From contig NZ_JACHNC010000001.1 in NCBI RefSeq assembly GCF_014205215.1, positions 6,754,501 to 6,818,500 of the forward strand: a stretch of DNA of 64,000 bases, given 5' to 3'. The DNA is from Actinoplanes lobatus. GTDB taxonomy: Bacteria; Actinomycetota; Actinomycetes; Mycobacteriales; Micromonosporaceae. This document shows, piece after piece, positions 36,353-56,716 of the stretch; the first letter of the stretch is position 1, and each line of letters opens with the position of its first letter. The position numbers and the translations under genes were made by a program. The notes below the pieces were generated by a model that was not told where the DNA came from, ran no database searches, and saw only the letters and a list, made by a program, of their open reading frames with translations.

Positions 36353-36763
36353 ATGGATGTGGTGTGGTCCGCGACGACGCTGGAATCGCGCCGTTTCCGG
36401 CCTACCCCGGTGCGGTCAGATCCGACAGAGCTGGACAGCCATTTCCGTCATCTTCGCCGGCGTCGCATCCGTGGCTACATCGAAGTCGAGGTTCCGGCGG
36501 TCGAGTCCCCGCAGTTGGCCATCGGGTTCCGCGGCGAGTATGCGGTCGTCCACCTGCTCGTCATCGCTCCGGTCGCGCAGTCCCTTCTTCTCGCCGGCGA
36601 CGGCACAGTTCCCGATGAGGCGTACGTCCAGGTCCCGGTCATGGACGAACTGATGAGGTTCACCGGCGACGTGGTCTTGGACGTTTACCGCGCGTGGGAC
36701 TTGGTCAGAGTCTTTATCCGCACCGGACAGGCCGGCGATATCGGAGAGTGGCACGCGCTTTAG
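36353..36763 (+). CDS. Small hypothetical, possibly Imm1-like immunity protein
   Basis: 136 residues. The order of strands and GYIEVEVPAVESPQLAIGF, GEYAVVHLLVIAP, LLAGDGT, VPVMDELMRFT recalls Imm1-family proteins, but I am not certain. No toxin gene is adjacent, so if it is an immunity protein it is an orphan. ATG at 36353. Lower GC at third positions than the core genes, in keeping with an acquired region. Confidence 0.5.
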   Translation: MDVVWSATTLESRRFRPTPVRSDPTELDSHFRHLRRRRIRGYIEVEVPAVESPQLAIGFRGEYAVVHLLVIAPVAQSLLLAGDGTVPDEAYVQVPVMDELMRFTGDVVLDVYRAWDLVRVFIRTGQAGDIGEWHAL

Positions 36764-51243: not shown

Positions 51244-51277
51244 CGGATGCCGTGCTCCAGCCGGAGCACGGCATCCG
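51244..51277. terminator. Hairpin terminator after the xylanase
   Basis: Perfect 15-bp stem CGGATGCCGTGCTCC (51244-51258) and GGAGCACGGCATCCG (51263-51277), loop AGCC, 7 bp after the stop. One of the strongest hairpins in the window. Confidence 0.9.
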
Positions 51278-51353: not shown

Positions 51354-54300
51354 TTGACCTCAGATGTGGTGTCGTTCGAGGATGCCGTCCAGTCGGCCGT
51401 CGAGCAGGGGCGTGCCGAACTGGCCCGGCTGGACGAGGTCACCGGCGAACTGGTCCGCGCGTTCGCGCCGGAACAGCGGGGCAGGCCGGCGTCATCGGCC
51501 CTGATCACCCGGCTCGACGACCTCACCACCGAGTTCCCGGCGGACCTGCGACGCCACCTGGATCGGGAGCGGGAGTCGCTCGCATCGTTCAACATCGCGT
51601 TCTTCGGGCGTACCGGCGTCGGCAAGAGCACCCTGCTGTCGGTGTTCGGCCGGCTCGACGGAACGTACGTCTCGCCTGGTGAAAGCGACTGCACCACCGA
51701 GGTGCAGGCCGTCGGATGGCGCAACTGCCGGCTCTACGACACCCCCGGCATCAACGGCTGGGGACGCACCGAGAGCCGCGAGAGTCTCGAAGCCAAGGCC
51801 CGCCGGGCGGTCGAGATCGCCGATGTCGTGTTCCTGTGCTTCGATTCCCAGTCCCAGCAGGCGATGGAGTTCACGAAGATCGCCGCCTGGATCAAGGACT
51901 ACGGCAAACCGGCGGTGGCCGTCCTCAACTCCCGCAACGCGCAGTGGCACCATCCCGCCCGGGTTGCCCCGCCCCTGCGGCGCAACCTGTCCGAGCAGGT
52001 GCGGCAGCACGCCGACAACATCCGGACCCATCTCGTGGAGATCGGCCTGCCGGAGACGCCGATCGTCGCGATCCACAGCCAGCGGGCCCTGTTCGCCCGC
52101 GCCACCACCCCCTTCCGCGGGGTGGCCGCGGACGGCCTCGACTTCGAACGCGACACCTTCGGCATCGAGTACCTCGAACGCTGGTCGAACTTCGGCACGC
52201 TGGAACGTCTGATGGCCCACCTGATCGAGGAGGGCGCCGCCGATCTCCGGCTGGCCGCGCTGCGCCAGGACGTCCGGTCGCGATGCCGGCGGGGGATCGG
52301 CGAACTCGAGGACCTGGCGGCCGCGATCGACCGGGAGGCCGAATCCGTCGAACGTGACATCGAGTCGCTGTTCGCCGTGCTCGGCTACCCGGACGACGCC
52401 GAACGGGCCGTGTGGCTGCACGACGCGGCACTCGGCGCGGACCTGGTCGGGGTGTCCGAGACGGCGCGGGCGGTCCCGTACACCTCACCGCCCCAAGGGA
52501 CGCTGGACCGCTTCGTCCGGCACCTCACCGCCTCGCACCTGGCGGGATGCCGCCGGCAGGCGAAGGCCGACGTGGATGAGCTGATCCGCAAGGCGTTCGC
52601 CGAGAAACGAGCGGTCGAGGAGCCGGAGTTCACCGAAGCGGTCTTCGACGAGGCCGCCGTCGGCGCCGCGGTGGCGGCCGTGTGGGCCGACCGCGGCGAG
52701 TTCCTGCGACGTGAGCTCGAAATCGCGGTGGGCCCCGAGTCCACCGGCAACGCGATGACGGTGTCGCACGCCGCGAAGATCCTCGGTGGCGAGGGCAGCG
52801 GCGTGATCGGCGACGTGGTCAAGGGGTCGGGCATCGCGCTGGGCCTGGGCGCCGCCGCCGTACCGCTCGCCGCGCTGCTGCTGTCGAACCCGGTGGGATG
52901 GGTGATCGGCGCGACCGCCGTGGGCGTCGGGATCGTGAGCCAGGTCCAGCAGTACTTCGGCAAGAAGATGAGCGACGAGGAAGCCGAACGGGCGCGGGAG
53001 GCGAGGTCCCAGGCAACGGTGACCGGCCATCGCGCGGTGGACGAGACGTTCAGCGGTTACGAGGACTCGCTCGTGGCCGAGAGCCGGAAAGCGGCGTGGA
53101 CGTTGCTGGGTCCCGCGGTCGCCGAGACGCTGCGTACCGCGATCGAGCTCCGCACGGCGCGCGCCCGGATCGGCCGGCTGATCGACGACCTGCGCACCCA
53201 CGCCGGTTCGATCGCGCCCGCGCCCGCGGTGGCCGACGTCCTCCAGCGGGCCCGGCGTCGCATGGGCGACTCCACGGCCGAGGTGACCCGGCTGTTGCTC
53301 GGCGAGGACTGGCTCGACGCCGGCGTCGACCCGCACGGGCCGGCGCAGATCGATCAAACCCTTCAGCAACGGTACGCCGAGCGCCGTCAGCAGGACCACG
53401 AACGACTGACCCGCGTGCTGGCCACGGCGTGGAGCACCCCGTCGACGGCGGCCATCCACGCGTGGCGGGCCGGCCTCGAGGAAGCCGCCCGGCACGACCC
53501 GGAGCTGTTCGACATCGTCCGGGCCTTCTGGCGCGTCGACGGAGCAAGACCGGCCTTCGTCGTTCTCGGTGACTACAACTCGGGCAAGTCGTCGCTGATC
53601 CGCCGGATCATGGTGGACAGCGGCCGGGAGACACGCGCGGCGATCGACATCCGGGCCACACCCGCGACCGCGGCCACGACCCGCTACCCGTTCCCCGGGT
53701 TCGACCTCGTGGACACCCCCGGACTGCAGAGCGGGCACGGCGAACACGACACCATCGCGTACGAGGCCATCGCCGAGGCCGCGCTCGTGTTCGTCGTCGT
53801 CCACATCAACCTGCTGGTCGGCGACACCACGATGCTGGAGGACCTGGCCCGCGGCGCGGAGACGATCGCCGCGAAGGGCGGCCGGACGGTGTTCCTCATC
53901 AACCGGTGCGACGAACTCGGCATGAACCCGCTCGCCGAACCCGCCGCATTCCTCAACCTGCAGAACCGCAAACGCGAAGAGTTGCGCGCCGCGTTCGCCG
54001 CCCGCGGCGTCGAGATCGGCACCGACCGGATCCACTGCCTGTCCGGCGACCCGTTCGGCCTGGTCGGAGCCGCTCCCGGGGCGCCGGCCGCCGCCTTCGA
54101 CGAGAACCGGCTGTGGGACGGCGTGGCAGCGCTGACCAGCACCATGTCCGGCCTCTCCGACGAGCGGCTGTCCGCCGCGTCGTCGTCGGCCGCCTTCGAC
54201 GCGGCGGTCACCGGCCTCAAACGGCGCCGGCACGCGCTGGAACGGGCGCAGGCCGACGCCGAGCAGGAGATGCGCCGTTCGGAACCGGTGATCGCCACCA

Positions 54301-55136
54301 TTCGGGCCGCGGTGCAGGACGCCGTGATCCTGGAGAACTCGCTGCGCGAGGCCGCCCGCCGCACCGTGGACCGCCACCTGGTGGCGGCCAAGTCCACGCT
54401 CGTGAAGATCGAACGCAAGGACGCCAGGAAGCTGGAGGACCTCGTCCAGTCCTGGTGGAAGGCCCCGGAGTTCGAAGCCGATCTCGAACGCTACCTGACC
54501 GACGCGGCACACCGGCTGGACGAGTGGTACAGCGACCACATGTCCGCGATCGGACGCGAGATGCGCGCCGCCGAACTCCAGGTCGCACCCGAACTCGCGG
54601 CCGAGTTCGAAGCCAAGGGAAACGCCTGGTACGAGAACGTGACCTCGGGCGCCGGCAATGTCGCGGGCGCCGTGGCGCCGCTGGTGAACGCCCTGGGCAC
54701 CCGGGACGCGGTCTACGCCATCGGCAAGTACTTCGGCCACAACTTCAAACCCTGGGGCGCCATCAACGGCGCCGCCCGGGTGGCCCGTGCCGGATTCGTC
54801 CTCGGGCTCGTCGCCTCCGCCGCCGACGTGGCGATGATGGCCAACGACAAACACAAGGACGGCAAACACAAGGACCAGCAGGACTCGGCCCTGCGGGAGA
54901 TCGACGAGGCGGCCGCCGGGCTCGTCGAACAGATCATGCGCGGTGAGCGGGCCGACGGTCCCGTCGGATACCTGGAACAGCAGATCAGGGAACTCGAGGC
55001 ACTGCTCGACGTACACCTCGATCGTGAGACGTCCCTCAAGAAGCGGATCGACTCGGCGAGAACGCGGGCCGCGACGGCCGGGGCCCTGATCACGGCCGCG
55101 GACGAACTGACGGGCACAACGGGGAGGAACGAGTGA
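51354..55136 (+). CDS. Double-GTPase dynamin-like large protein
   Basis: 1260 residues from TTG 51354 (GTG 51366 is an alternative). GTPase 1: P-loop GRTGVGKST (85-93), DTPG (129-132), no clear NKxD (LNSRN at 191-195). A hydrophobic block spans about 488-532 (LGLGAAAVPLAALLLSNPVG), long enough for two membrane passes or a paddle. GTPase 2: GDYNSGKSS (739-747), DTPG (787-790), NRCD (850-853), then coiled-coil-rich helices and a second hydrophobic stretch 1132-1162 before a charged KHKDGKHKDQQD. Tandem G domains with helical spacers recall bacterial dynamin-like proteins that remodel membranes. Overlaps the next GTPase gene by GTGA. Exact function unknown. Confidence 0.75.
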   Translation: MTSDVVSFEDAVQSAVEQGRAELARLDEVTGELVRAFAPEQRGRPASSALITRLDDLTTEFPADLRRHLDRERESLASFNIAFFGRTGVGKSTLLSVFGRLDGTYVSPGESDCTTEVQAVGWRNCRLYDTPGINGWGRTESRESLEAKARRAVEIADVVFLCFDSQSQQAMEFTKIAAWIKDYGKPAVAVLNSRNAQWHHPARVAPPLRRNLSEQVRQHADNIRTHLVEIGLPETPIVAIHSQRALFARATTPFRGVAADGLDFERDTFGIEYLERWSNFGTLERLMAHLIEEGAADLRLAALRQDVRSRCRRGIGELEDLAAAIDREAESVERDIESLFAVLGYPDDAERAVWLHDAALGADLVGVSETARAVPYTSPPQGTLDRFVRHLTASHLAGCRRQAKADVDELIRKAFAEKRAVEEPEFTEAVFDEAAVGAAVAAVWADRGEFLRRELEIAVGPESTGNAMTVSHAAKILGGEGSGVIGDVVKGSGIALGLGAAAVPLAALLLSNPVGWVIGATAVGVGIVSQVQQYFGKKMSDEEAERAREARSQATVTGHRAVDETFSGYEDSLVAESRKAAWTLLGPAVAETLRTAIELRTARARIGRLIDDLRTHAGSIAPAPAVADVLQRARRRMGDSTAEVTRLLLGEDWLDAGVDPHGPAQIDQTLQQRYAERRQQDHERLTRVLATAWSTPSTAAIHAWRAGLEEAARHDPELFDIVRAFWRVDGARPAFVVLGDYNSGKSSLIRRIMVDSGRETRAAIDIRATPATAATTRYPFPGFDLVDTPGLQSGHGEHDTIAYEAIAEAALVFVVVHINLLVGDTTMLEDLARGAETIAAKGGRTVFLINRCDELGMNPLAEPAAFLNLQNRKREELRAAFAARGVEIGTDRIHCLSGDPFGLVGAAPGAPAAAFDENRLWDGVAALTSTMSGLSDERLSAASSSAAFDAAVTGLKRRRHALERAQADAEQEMRRSEPVIATIRAAVQDAVILENSLREAARRTVDRHLVAAKSTLVKIERKDARKLEDLVQSWWKAPEFEADLERYLTDAAHRLDEWYSDHMSAIGREMRAAELQVAPELAAEFEAKGNAWYENVTSGAGNVAGAVAPLVNALGTRDAVYAIGKYFGHNFKPWGAINGAARVARAGFVLGLVASAADVAMMANDKHKDGKHKDQQDSALREIDEAAAGLVEQIMRGERADGPVGYLEQQIRELEALLDVHLDRETSLKKRIDSARTRAATAGALITAADELTGTTGRNE

Positions 55137-56716
55137 CCGTGGTCGACATCGATGCGGTGCGGGACTGGCTGGGCCGGCTGCCCGGCGGATCGCTGGCCGG
55201 ACGGTACGGCGCCGCCTGGGACACCTTCCAGCAGCTGGACAAGCCGGTCGTGACCCTCTTCGGGTCCTACGACACCGGCAAGAGCTCCCTGCTGCGCCGG
55301 CTGATCGCCGACACCGGCGGCACCGCGCCCGCCTGGCTCACCATCAGCGCGCGTCACGAGACCTTCGAGGTCAACGGCGTCGAGGTCGGCGGCTGCATCG
55401 TCCGGGACACCCCCGGATTCTCGGTCGGCGGGTCCGACGTCCGGGCGCAGAACAACACCCGCGAGGCCCTGGCGGCGGTCGACCTCACGGACGTCGGCGT
55501 CCTCGTGCTCACCCCGCAACTGGCGACCGCCGACCGCGACCAGCTCCAGCAGCTGATCACCCGCGAGTGGCCCGCGGGAACGCTGTGGATCGTGATCTCC
55601 CGGTTCGACGAGGCCGGCGTCAACCCCGAGCACGGGCTCGCCCCGTACCGGGAACTGACCGCCCGCAAGGTCGCTGAACTGCGGCAACAGCTGACGTTCG
55701 ACGACTCGGCCCCGGTCTACGCCGTGGCGCCGGATCCGTTCGGGCTGGCCGGCTCGTACACCGATCTCGGCCCGGAGACCTGGGACGCCTACCGCGCCTG
55801 GGACGGCATGAAGGACCTGACGGACGCCCTCGGCGCGGTGTCGTCGTCGGACCTGCCCGGATGGCGGCACGCCGCCGGGCAACGCTACTGGACGGCGGTC
55901 CTCGAACAGACCGTGACCGAACTGCGCGTCCAGCTGGCCGGCTACACGGTACGTGCCGAGGTCGCCACCAGCGGCATCAACCGCCGCCGGGCGTCGGAGA
56001 ACGAACTCGACGCCATCGACCGCGCCGCCCGGGCCGGCCTCGACGGTCTCGTCGAGGAGGTGCTGCGCCGCGCCGGGAACCCGGCCTCCGGCACCGACGA
56101 GGTCCAGGCCGAGATCCAGCGCGCGCTCGGCGAGTGGTTCGAGAAGCACGAGCTCCGCCTCCAGCGGCTGCGGCAATCGGTGCGCAAGTCCACCGAACGC
56201 GACCACGCCCACCCGGCCTGGGCCGACTTCGCCTCCCTGGTCGCCACCCTCGAATCCGGCACCACCCGGGTCCCGGCCGAGGGCCTCGCCGGACGTGTCG
56301 AGTCGGTCGGGCCCATGCTGGTCGGCGTGCTGAAGGCGATGAGCGACGCGGCCGGGCCACTCGCCGGCAAGAAGACCCGCACCGCCAAGGCGGCCGAAGG
56401 GCTGGGACGGCACCTCGGCACCGTCGAGGCCGCGGTTCCCCTCGTCGTGTACGCGGCGAAGATCTTCGACGACTACCGGGCGGACCGTGCCCGTACCAAC
56501 CAGGACAGGGCGGCGGCCGACAGCCGGCAACAGCTCGTCGACGCCTGCACCCGGCACGCCCTCGACACCTGGCAGCCGTACGTCGACGATCTGCGCGACG
56601 AGATCGTCGCCGCGACGAGCGACCGCGCGGACCTCGACGAGAGCCTGCACCAACTCGTCGGCCACCTCCGCGAAGCCCTGGCCGAGGGCGAGCGCCTGCT
56701 CACCCCGCCGCGGTAG
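55133..56716 (+). CDS. Partner GTPase of the dynamin-like protein
   Basis: 527 residues. P-loop GSYDTGKSS (44-52), which resembles GTPase 2 of the upstream protein (GDYNSGKSS) rather than GTPase 1; DTPG (92-95); SRFD (156-159) at the position of NKxD, like NRCD upstream. Residues 250-520 are helical, with a mildly hydrophobic stretch near 445-460 (EAAVPLVVYAAKIF). Co-translated with the double GTPase. Pairing of unequal dynamin-like GTPases is known in bacteria (for example LeoA-type operons and DynA/DynB), but this arrangement, double plus single, is not one I recognise. Confidence 0.75.
   Translation: MTVVDIDAVRDWLGRLPGGSLAGRYGAAWDTFQQLDKPVVTLFGSYDTGKSSLLRRLIADTGGTAPAWLTISARHETFEVNGVEVGGCIVRDTPGFSVGGSDVRAQNNTREALAAVDLTDVGVLVLTPQLATADRDQLQQLITREWPAGTLWIVISRFDEAGVNPEHGLAPYRELTARKVAELRQQLTFDDSAPVYAVAPDPFGLAGSYTDLGPETWDAYRAWDGMKDLTDALGAVSSSDLPGWRHAAGQRYWTAVLEQTVTELRVQLAGYTVRAEVATSGINRRRASENELDAIDRAARAGLDGLVEEVLRRAGNPASGTDEVQAEIQRALGEWFEKHELRLQRLRQSVRKSTERDHAHPAWADFASLVATLESGTTRVPAEGLAGRVESVGPMLVGVLKAMSDAAGPLAGKKTRTAKAAEGLGRHLGTVEAAVPLVVYAAKIFDDYRADRARTNQDRAAADSRQQLVDACTRHALDTWQPYVDDLRDEIVAATSDRADLDESLHQLVGHLREALAEGERLLTPPR

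Follow-up and report, generated by a model that had tools for sequence, protein, structure and literature searches.

A 64,000-nucleotide stretch of the Actinoplanes lobatus genome (contig NZ_JACHNC010000001.1, positions 6,754,501 to 6,818,500; hereafter the window, with positions counted from its first letter) contains two overlapping genes that encode three dynamin-like GTPase modules. In the longer open reading frame (ORF1) a LeoBC-type module is fused to a LeoA-type module (LeoA'), and the shorter one (ORF2) encodes a second, free LeoA (LeoA''). The locus is quite probably a three-dynamin form of the Eleos system with a membrane-acting role in phage defence. Its layout is as follows:

51354..55136, + strand: ORF1, LeoBC-LeoA' fusion of 1260 residues with two dynamin-like GTPase modules (profiles, homologues, start alignment, model)
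51369..53297, + strand: LeoBC module, ORF1 residues 6-648 (PADLOC LeoBC profile PDLC03841, E 5.5e-154; on the side of the unfused LeoBC in the tree)
53538..55055, + strand: LeoA' module behind LeoBC, ORF1 residues 729-1234 (PADLOC LeoA profile PDLC03839, E 1.1e-77; NCBIfam NF041922, E 3.9e-16)
55133..55136, + strand: ORF1 stop and ORF2 start, a 4-base overlap (the same overlap in 25 of 46 measured loci)
55133..56716, + strand: ORF2, second LeoA (LeoA''), 527 residues (PADLOC LeoA profile, E 1.2e-98; model with a predicted local distance difference test score, pLDDT, of 85.3; dynamin-family matches in PDB)

ORF1 starts with a TTG codon at 51354, in a frame that is open from a GTG at 51252; three of eight aligned homologues (P0012, P0040 and P0047) begin at the residue encoded by 51354, and the remaining five are longer by 2-13 residues. 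Homologues at E<=1e-3 number 308 for ORF1 and 236 for ORF2 (7,994 candidates scored for each), which places the pair far beyond chance; the closest ones come from A. flavus for ORF1 (92%) and from A. campanulatus for ORF2 (94%). The LeoBC profile scores this locus at 461 bits, and other GTPase frames elsewhere in the A. lobatus genome at no more than 66 bits. The NCBIfam match of LeoA' reaches 59 bits, far under the curated cut-off of 325. Pfam families found above their curated cut-offs are MMR_HSR1, Dynamin_N and RsgA_GTPase in ORF1 and MMR_HSR1 in ORF2.

Motifs and predicted fold of the three modules

The GTPase motifs and hydrophobic tips, with their conservation among aligned homologues (rows), are:

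51606..51632, + strand: P-loop 1 GRTGVGKST, ORF1 residues 85-93 (GKST in 84 of 86 rows, the other two gapped)
51738..51749, + strand: G3 DTPG of GTPase 1, ORF1 residues 129-132 (83 of 86 rows)
51924..51938, + strand: LNSRN at the G4 place of GTPase 1, ORF1 residues 191-195 (first N, R/K and last N kept in 86 of 86 rows)
52827..52946, + strand: hydrophobic tip of the LeoBC module, a probable membrane paddle, ORF1 residues 492-531 (Kyte-Doolittle 2.04 and 1.51; low-confidence stretch 461-542 between long helices)
53568..53594, + strand: P-loop 2 GDYNSGKSS, ORF1 residues 739-747 (GD, GK and last S invariant in 86 rows)
53712..53723, + strand: G3 DTPG of GTPase 2, ORF1 residues 787-790 (85 of 86 rows)
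53901..53912, + strand: NRCD, variant G4 of GTPase 2, ORF1 residues 850-853 (NR[CSA]D in 86 of 86 rows)
54780..54836, + strand: hydrophobic tip of the LeoA' module, ORF1 residues 1143-1161 (Kyte-Doolittle 1.59; low-confidence stretch 1078-1167)
55262..55288, + strand: P-loop 3 GSYDTGKSS, ORF2 residues 44-52 (GK invariant in 95 rows)
55406..55417, + strand: G3 DTPG of GTPase 3, ORF2 residues 92-95 (94 of 95 rows)
55598..55609, + strand: SRFD, variant G4 of GTPase 3, ORF2 residues 156-159 (93 of 95 rows)

The original prediction, made from the letters and their translations, described one polypeptide with two GTPase domains about 650 residues apart that overlaps a second GTPase gene; the P-loops of ORF1 indeed start 654 residues apart, and the overlap is of 4 bases. 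Its likening of GTPase 2 to the partner, with GTPase 1 of another type, agrees with the tree described below, where the former two are closely related LeoA-type modules and the latter is LeoBC-type, and with the replacement of NKxD by LN.RN in GTPase 1. It had also called NRCD and SRFD degenerate. The canonical G4 (T/N)KxD of the dynamin superfamily is absent, with LN.RN, NR[CSA]D and SRFD in its place, so the motifs are variant as claimed, but they are kept over the families (86 and 95 rows) and therefore represent a family trait and not decay; a variant G4 is not taken as exclusion from the superfamily. In two Catellatospora loci (L096 and L100), P-loop 2 of LeoA' deviates (GERGTGKTA and GDRGTGKTS), P-loop 1 is kept, and ORF2 carries GPWSAGKSS.

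Hydrophobic blocks had been placed at residues 488-532 and 1132-1162 of ORF1, and Kyte-Doolittle peaks over 19 residues coincide with them (492-510, 513-531 and 1143-1161). The highest peak of ORF1 (805-823, 2.15) lies inside GTPase domain 2, and the sole ORF2 peak of at least 1.3 (112-130, 1.44) is within its GTPase domain. In this copy, hydrophobic tips are thus found on both ORF1 modules and on none of ORF2.

The proposed dynamin-like layout is borne out both by the PADLOC profiles and by structure models (AlphaFold2 for ORF2), which match dynamin-family structures by E-value, with low template modelling (TM) scores. For ORF2, Foldseek ranks 1-13 are all dynamin-family proteins: BDLP, the Cj-DLP pair, IniA, DRP1, SynDLP, OPA1 and Mx proteins. 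On realignment with VIA-align, the 50 matches listed are G-domain proteins such as Era and EF-Tu; the LeoA structure 4AUR is not among the 50 matches listed for ORF2 (Foldseek, VIA-align). The ORF1 model (residues 1-1200, pLDDT 74.9, predicted TM-score 0.55) contains two G domains, long helices after each (the longest of 64, 85 and 83 residues) and, on each module, a low-confidence tip holding that module's hydrophobic block. Its top PDB match in Foldseek is LeoA, 4AUR (E 9.2e-8, TM-scores 0.16/0.30). A search of PDB by sequence returned only Era/Der-type G domains for ORF1 and no match for ORF2. The build of the dynamin superfamily, a G domain, a long helical neck and trunk and a membrane tip, is seen in the models and agrees with the Foldseek E-values, with the tip on the ORF1 modules only. 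BDLP and mycobacterial IniA, high in the Foldseek lists, share this fold but are single-module proteins, and the likeness here is one of fold. Sequence and models together establish the modules and their fold.

Relation to Eleos and origin of the third dynamin

The anti-viral systems reported for Kerstersia include 'Dynamins (LeoA and LeoBC)' (PMC10999152), and calls of 'dynamins' and of Eleos are described as often coinciding (PMC11811056), which ties the PADLOC LeoBC and LeoA profiles to Eleos. Eleos is reported as enriched in Rhodococcus (PMC10482375), and R. erythropolis NI86/21 is reported to carry it as a system of two proteins (PMC12915292). As R. erythropolis proteins P0116 (1288 residues) and P0206 (535 residues) match LeoBC plus LeoA and LeoA, respectively, the Rhodococcus reports probably include the present layout. 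The PADLOC LeoBC profile itself was probably built with fused members and trimmed to 601 positions, since fused proteins score 390-527 bits against it (n=5) and unfused ones 175-366 bits (n=4).

The idea of an undescribed system, with an arrangement that could not be named, was rejected because all three modules match the profiles of this listed anti-viral family. The locus differs from it less than had been claimed, by a third dynamin apparently derived from LeoA duplication, with one copy fused to LeoBC. On the Klebsiella michiganensis plasmid p2562_1 (L128), LeoBC and LeoA are adjacent, in the same order and both PADLOC-matched, but such plasmid loci carry two dynamins in two genes, whereas here LeoBC and LeoA' are fused and LeoA is duplicated. 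Since three modules in two genes stand against two dynamins in separate genes, the locus is, by its sequence, a variant of Eleos and not a plain member. Phage defence, left open by the original prediction together with membrane repair, division and vesicles, is a live option, and a vesicle role ranks low.

No published statement of the three-dynamin make-up was found in the literature searched, nor was a description of three unlike dynamins in such a layout for any dynamin family. Profile scans label the pair LeoBC plus LeoA, and the second LeoA inside the 'LeoBC' gene is easily missed. Eleos was reportedly tested in the laboratory by Millman in 2022; if those first laboratory-tested proteins are fused, the three-dynamin variant is already known.

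A scan of one genome per species gave 52 loci related to the fused protein, and among the six records from a search of plasmids, Nostoc pn6 is of the fused type. The fused gene is followed by ORF2 in 47 of 53 loci (46 by script, plus L059, whose ORF2 frame is beyond the script's length limit); two of the remaining six run off contig ends (L092 and L093), and four have broken or short frames (L098, L101, L102 and L103). The 47 loci belong to four phyla, mostly to Actinomycetota, with Pseudomonas, Novosphingobium, a Spirochaetia metagenome-assembled genome (MAG) and Nostoc in addition. Separate genes for LeoBC (698-842 residues) and LeoA (567-618 residues) are found in four two-gene loci, in Klebsiella michiganensis, Rhodovastum, Pseudanabaena and an Actinoplanes genome (G011); in the three on plasmids, the dynamins are of 698-842 and 567-580 residues.

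The tree covers 59 rows, from 17 chosen fused loci (15 of the set of 53, together with L043 and that of the window) and the four two-gene loci, with L045 left out; it is rooted at the midpoint, includes some long branches, no outside dynamins and four unfused pairs. LeoBC halves, LeoA' halves and ORF2 proteins form one clade each (100/100, 100/98 and 100/100). LeoA' and ORF2 together make up a clade (100/98) that excludes the unfused LeoA, and the LeoBC halves group with the unfused LeoBC against all LeoA modules (100/99). The simplest reading of these sequences is a single LeoA duplication and a single fusion, which would have preceded the spread across phyla. Module distances correlate at 0.963-0.970 across the three modules, with none of 2000 permutations as high. 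Groupings that run counter to host taxonomy, such as that of Agromyces with the Spirochaetia MAG and that of Cryobacterium with Mycobacterium, are found with 100/100 support for each of the three modules and argue that the modules travelled together. The shared ancestry of the modules and the constant gene order are established on the same footing as the fold.

Searching with the N-half alone (candidates of about 380-1207 residues) returned 47 proteins, the weakest 18 at E >=8.7e-7. Five of them (P0242, P0243, P0244, P0254 and P0256; 702-849 residues) span 90-99% of the N-half, and each of them could be either an unfused protein or a broken copy; P0243, from Rhodococcus sp. WMMA185, is LeoBC-like with 99% N-half cover and, at 785 residues, too short for the fusion. 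In L101, L102 and L103, stops or frame changes split the fused gene, which points to decay or to an error of assembly. One genome (G055) has a locus of each kind, with three dynamins (L041) and with two (L045). In G011, the LeoBC (735 residues) and LeoA (618 residues) pair (L044:9181-13138) adjoins a frame that by eye resembles a DNA cytosine methyltransferase. On the Nostoc sp. plasmid pn6 (L053; 35.9 kb, mobilizable), the three-dynamin pair has parA/parB, a gene for an AAA protein and one of the protelomerase family as neighbours.

Distribution and genomic surroundings

Fused LeoBC was found at E<=1e-90 in 11 of 60 genomes of the genus, that of A. lobatus included, and 49 had no match. In a sample of 396 genomes of the phylum, with few candidates scored in each, two matched at E<=1e-40 (A. 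lobatus itself and one 292-residue frame), which suggests that the system is uncommon in the phylum as a whole. A phage-borne copy was considered and rejected, ORF1 having no tblastn match in 50,697 phage records.

This distribution bears on whether the locus might encode a housekeeping dynamin that acts in septation or under antibiotic-induced membrane stress, as is said of the actinobacterial DynA/DynB or IniA/IniC pairs. Such a role would suit the metabolic genes around the window copy, and membrane repair is described as a frequent role of bacterial dynamins (PMC8844932), but the 49 genomes of the genus that lack a match, the LeoBC score far above that of other GTPase frames of the genome, the spread across phyla and the presence on a plasmid make it improbable.

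At ten fused loci of the genus (about 7 kb on each side), neighbours in common with the window are limited to a few matches of 26-47% identity. A. flavus is an exception, with the xylanase kept on one side of the pair; in another species, the xylanase and the dehydratase are 1.7 kb apart in inverted order, and the insertion site is not cleanly shown.

Beside 57 loci, 418 genes were called and 382 scanned with PADLOC, 25 families being listed per scan. Among the matches listed, the neighbours of related loci include PglX, PglZ, PglW, BrxC, BrxD, BrxHI, type I and IIG restriction-modification genes, DrmA/DrmD, Dpd, Gabija-type helicases and Mokosh, and the family counts were 43, 154 and 114 in 134, 117 and 131 neighbours. 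In a control scan of 129 of the 286 genes in 20 arbitrary stretches of genus genomes, the matches amounted to 11 families, namely AbiE, three mads_3 and a number of single matches. As a measure of defence neighbours, these family counts were set aside as weak, because the window's own 66 neighbours give 40 families. The kinds among the 25 listed are PD-T4-6, C3a189 'kinase', Cas12f/Cas12u, Csx1 and mads, and 16 of them are PD-T4-6 profiles with one member each, probably a single kinase. One neighbour that matches the Cas12f/Cas12u profiles is possibly a TnpB-type transposon gene.

As family counts mislead, reliance was placed on named hallmark genes and on distances to pglZ, a gene picked after it had appeared among the neighbours. 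It was sought in 46 genomes (47 of the 52 loci) and found in 13; in eight of these it lies on the contig of the pair, 3.4-13.1 kb away, and in five on a contig of another length, contigs being matched by their length. By our estimate, random placement in genomes of 4.7-10.8 Mb predicts well under one such case. The related loci are defence-linked, and the copy in the window is an exception. The relatives lie near BREX/Pgl, restriction-modification and DISARM-type genes, and the window copy in no clear defence island.

A putative membrane-acting complex

From comparison with better-studied dynamins we infer membrane binding, cross-pairing, a trigger and sealing. The fused LeoBC-LeoA' chain would sit on the inner face of the cell membrane via its two tips, and LeoA'' would be a soluble partner that pairs with the G domains of the fused modules and bridges chains, like Cj-DLP2 between Cj-DLP1. 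GTP binding and the pairing of unlike G domains would trigger assembly. Wherever an entering phage, or one about to lyse the cell, upsets the membrane, the complex would gather at the lesion and tether or seal it, and sealing would hold back lysis and release, as with Bacillus subtilis DynA.

The bridged, membrane-bound chain is favoured because of three precedents together with the hint given by the tips. In Campylobacter, Cj-DLP2 is described as an adaptor between two Cj-DLP1, in a tetramer that tethers membranes and whose nucleotide turnover needs both GTPases (PMC6104087). These are likewise unlike dynamins paired in an operon, and they match the fold of ORF1 and ORF2, although they are two modules in two proteins without fusion. 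For LeoA alone, the account drawn on here reports that GTP binding and hydrolysis were not seen, and pairing with LeoBC was proposed (PMC4159319). DynA, a two-headed protein formed by gene fusion and linked to phage resistance, is reported to cluster on the membrane of infected cells and to delay lysis (PMC8844932). DynA has two modules, whereas here a third is encoded by a separate gene, and it is likened to ORF1 by description and not by sequence.

Taken alone, the sealing step comes close to an even chance, and it overlaps with an abortive version, in which the three-dynamin complex, triggered by infection, would break or remodel the host membrane and cause death before phage release. Such an outcome would draw on the same anatomy and on the defence surroundings of related loci, and dynamin-family proteins are generally known to cut as well as to fuse membranes. 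However, DynA, the two-headed fusion with a phage effect, is described as protecting via lysis delay and not killing (PMC8844932), and the Pfam and NCBIfam matches above curated cut-offs in both proteins are to GTPase and dynamin families only; killing is thus unlikely. Returning to the bridged complex, we tentatively propose an obligate machine of three unlike dynamin GTPases, in which the fusion would lock one LeoA with LeoBC and the free copy would act as a diffusible trigger or bridge, and whose genes may have passed together from phylum to phylum, serving in phage defence. Whether bacterial dynamins act as heteromers was raised for LeoABC, where LeoB and LeoC are reported as not obtainable in sufficient amounts (PMC4159319). 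In the present system, the fusion sets which modules pair and the partner is unambiguous, making the question directly testable.

Several points weigh against this reading of the locus as a membrane-acting form of Eleos. In the window, the pair lies among genes of sugar uptake and breakdown (for sugar ABC transporters, a GH10 xylanase, a fructosamine kinase, an IlvD/Edd dehydratase and an SMP-30 protein), and no clear defence island or system was found among the 66 neighbour proteins in about 104 kb (25 of 40 PADLOC families listed). No phage assay of the three-dynamin variant was found in the literature searched. The Foldseek TM-scores are low (0.16/0.30 between ORF1 and 4AUR; at most 0.34 for the first 13 matches of ORF2), and kinship therefore rests on profile scores and E-values; at its predicted TM-score of 0.55, the ORF1 model does not fix the mutual placement of the two halves. 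Across the family, the contrast in tips is weak: 14 of 17 LeoBC, 13 of 17 LeoA' and 8 of 17 ORF2 modules reach a maximal hydropathy of at least 1.6, and the medians over the 17 loci (1.91, 1.90 and 1.57, respectively) come with overlapping ranges. Because of this overlap, and because the maximum can fall in a G domain, the contrast is a hint only. Host ancestry could also yield correlated module distances, at least in part, and two of the modules share one gene. Finally, deletion of leoA and leoB is reported to have roughly halved vesicle release in E. coli (PMC4159319), in keeping with a vesicle or secretion machine such as was proposed for LeoABC of the enterotoxigenic strain. For the present locus this is very improbable, as actinobacterial hosts mostly lack a Gram-negative outer membrane, and the patchy presence and the defence neighbours of related loci suit defence better.

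Two minor observations concern the A. lobatus genome. Two further adjoining pairs of GTPase frames with weak LeoBC matches lie at 6725751-6731529 and 6033446-6035693, one of them about 75 kb upstream of the present pair. Coding stretches at 36353-36763 of the window and at L047:5982-7193, about 50 kb apart, are 79% identical.

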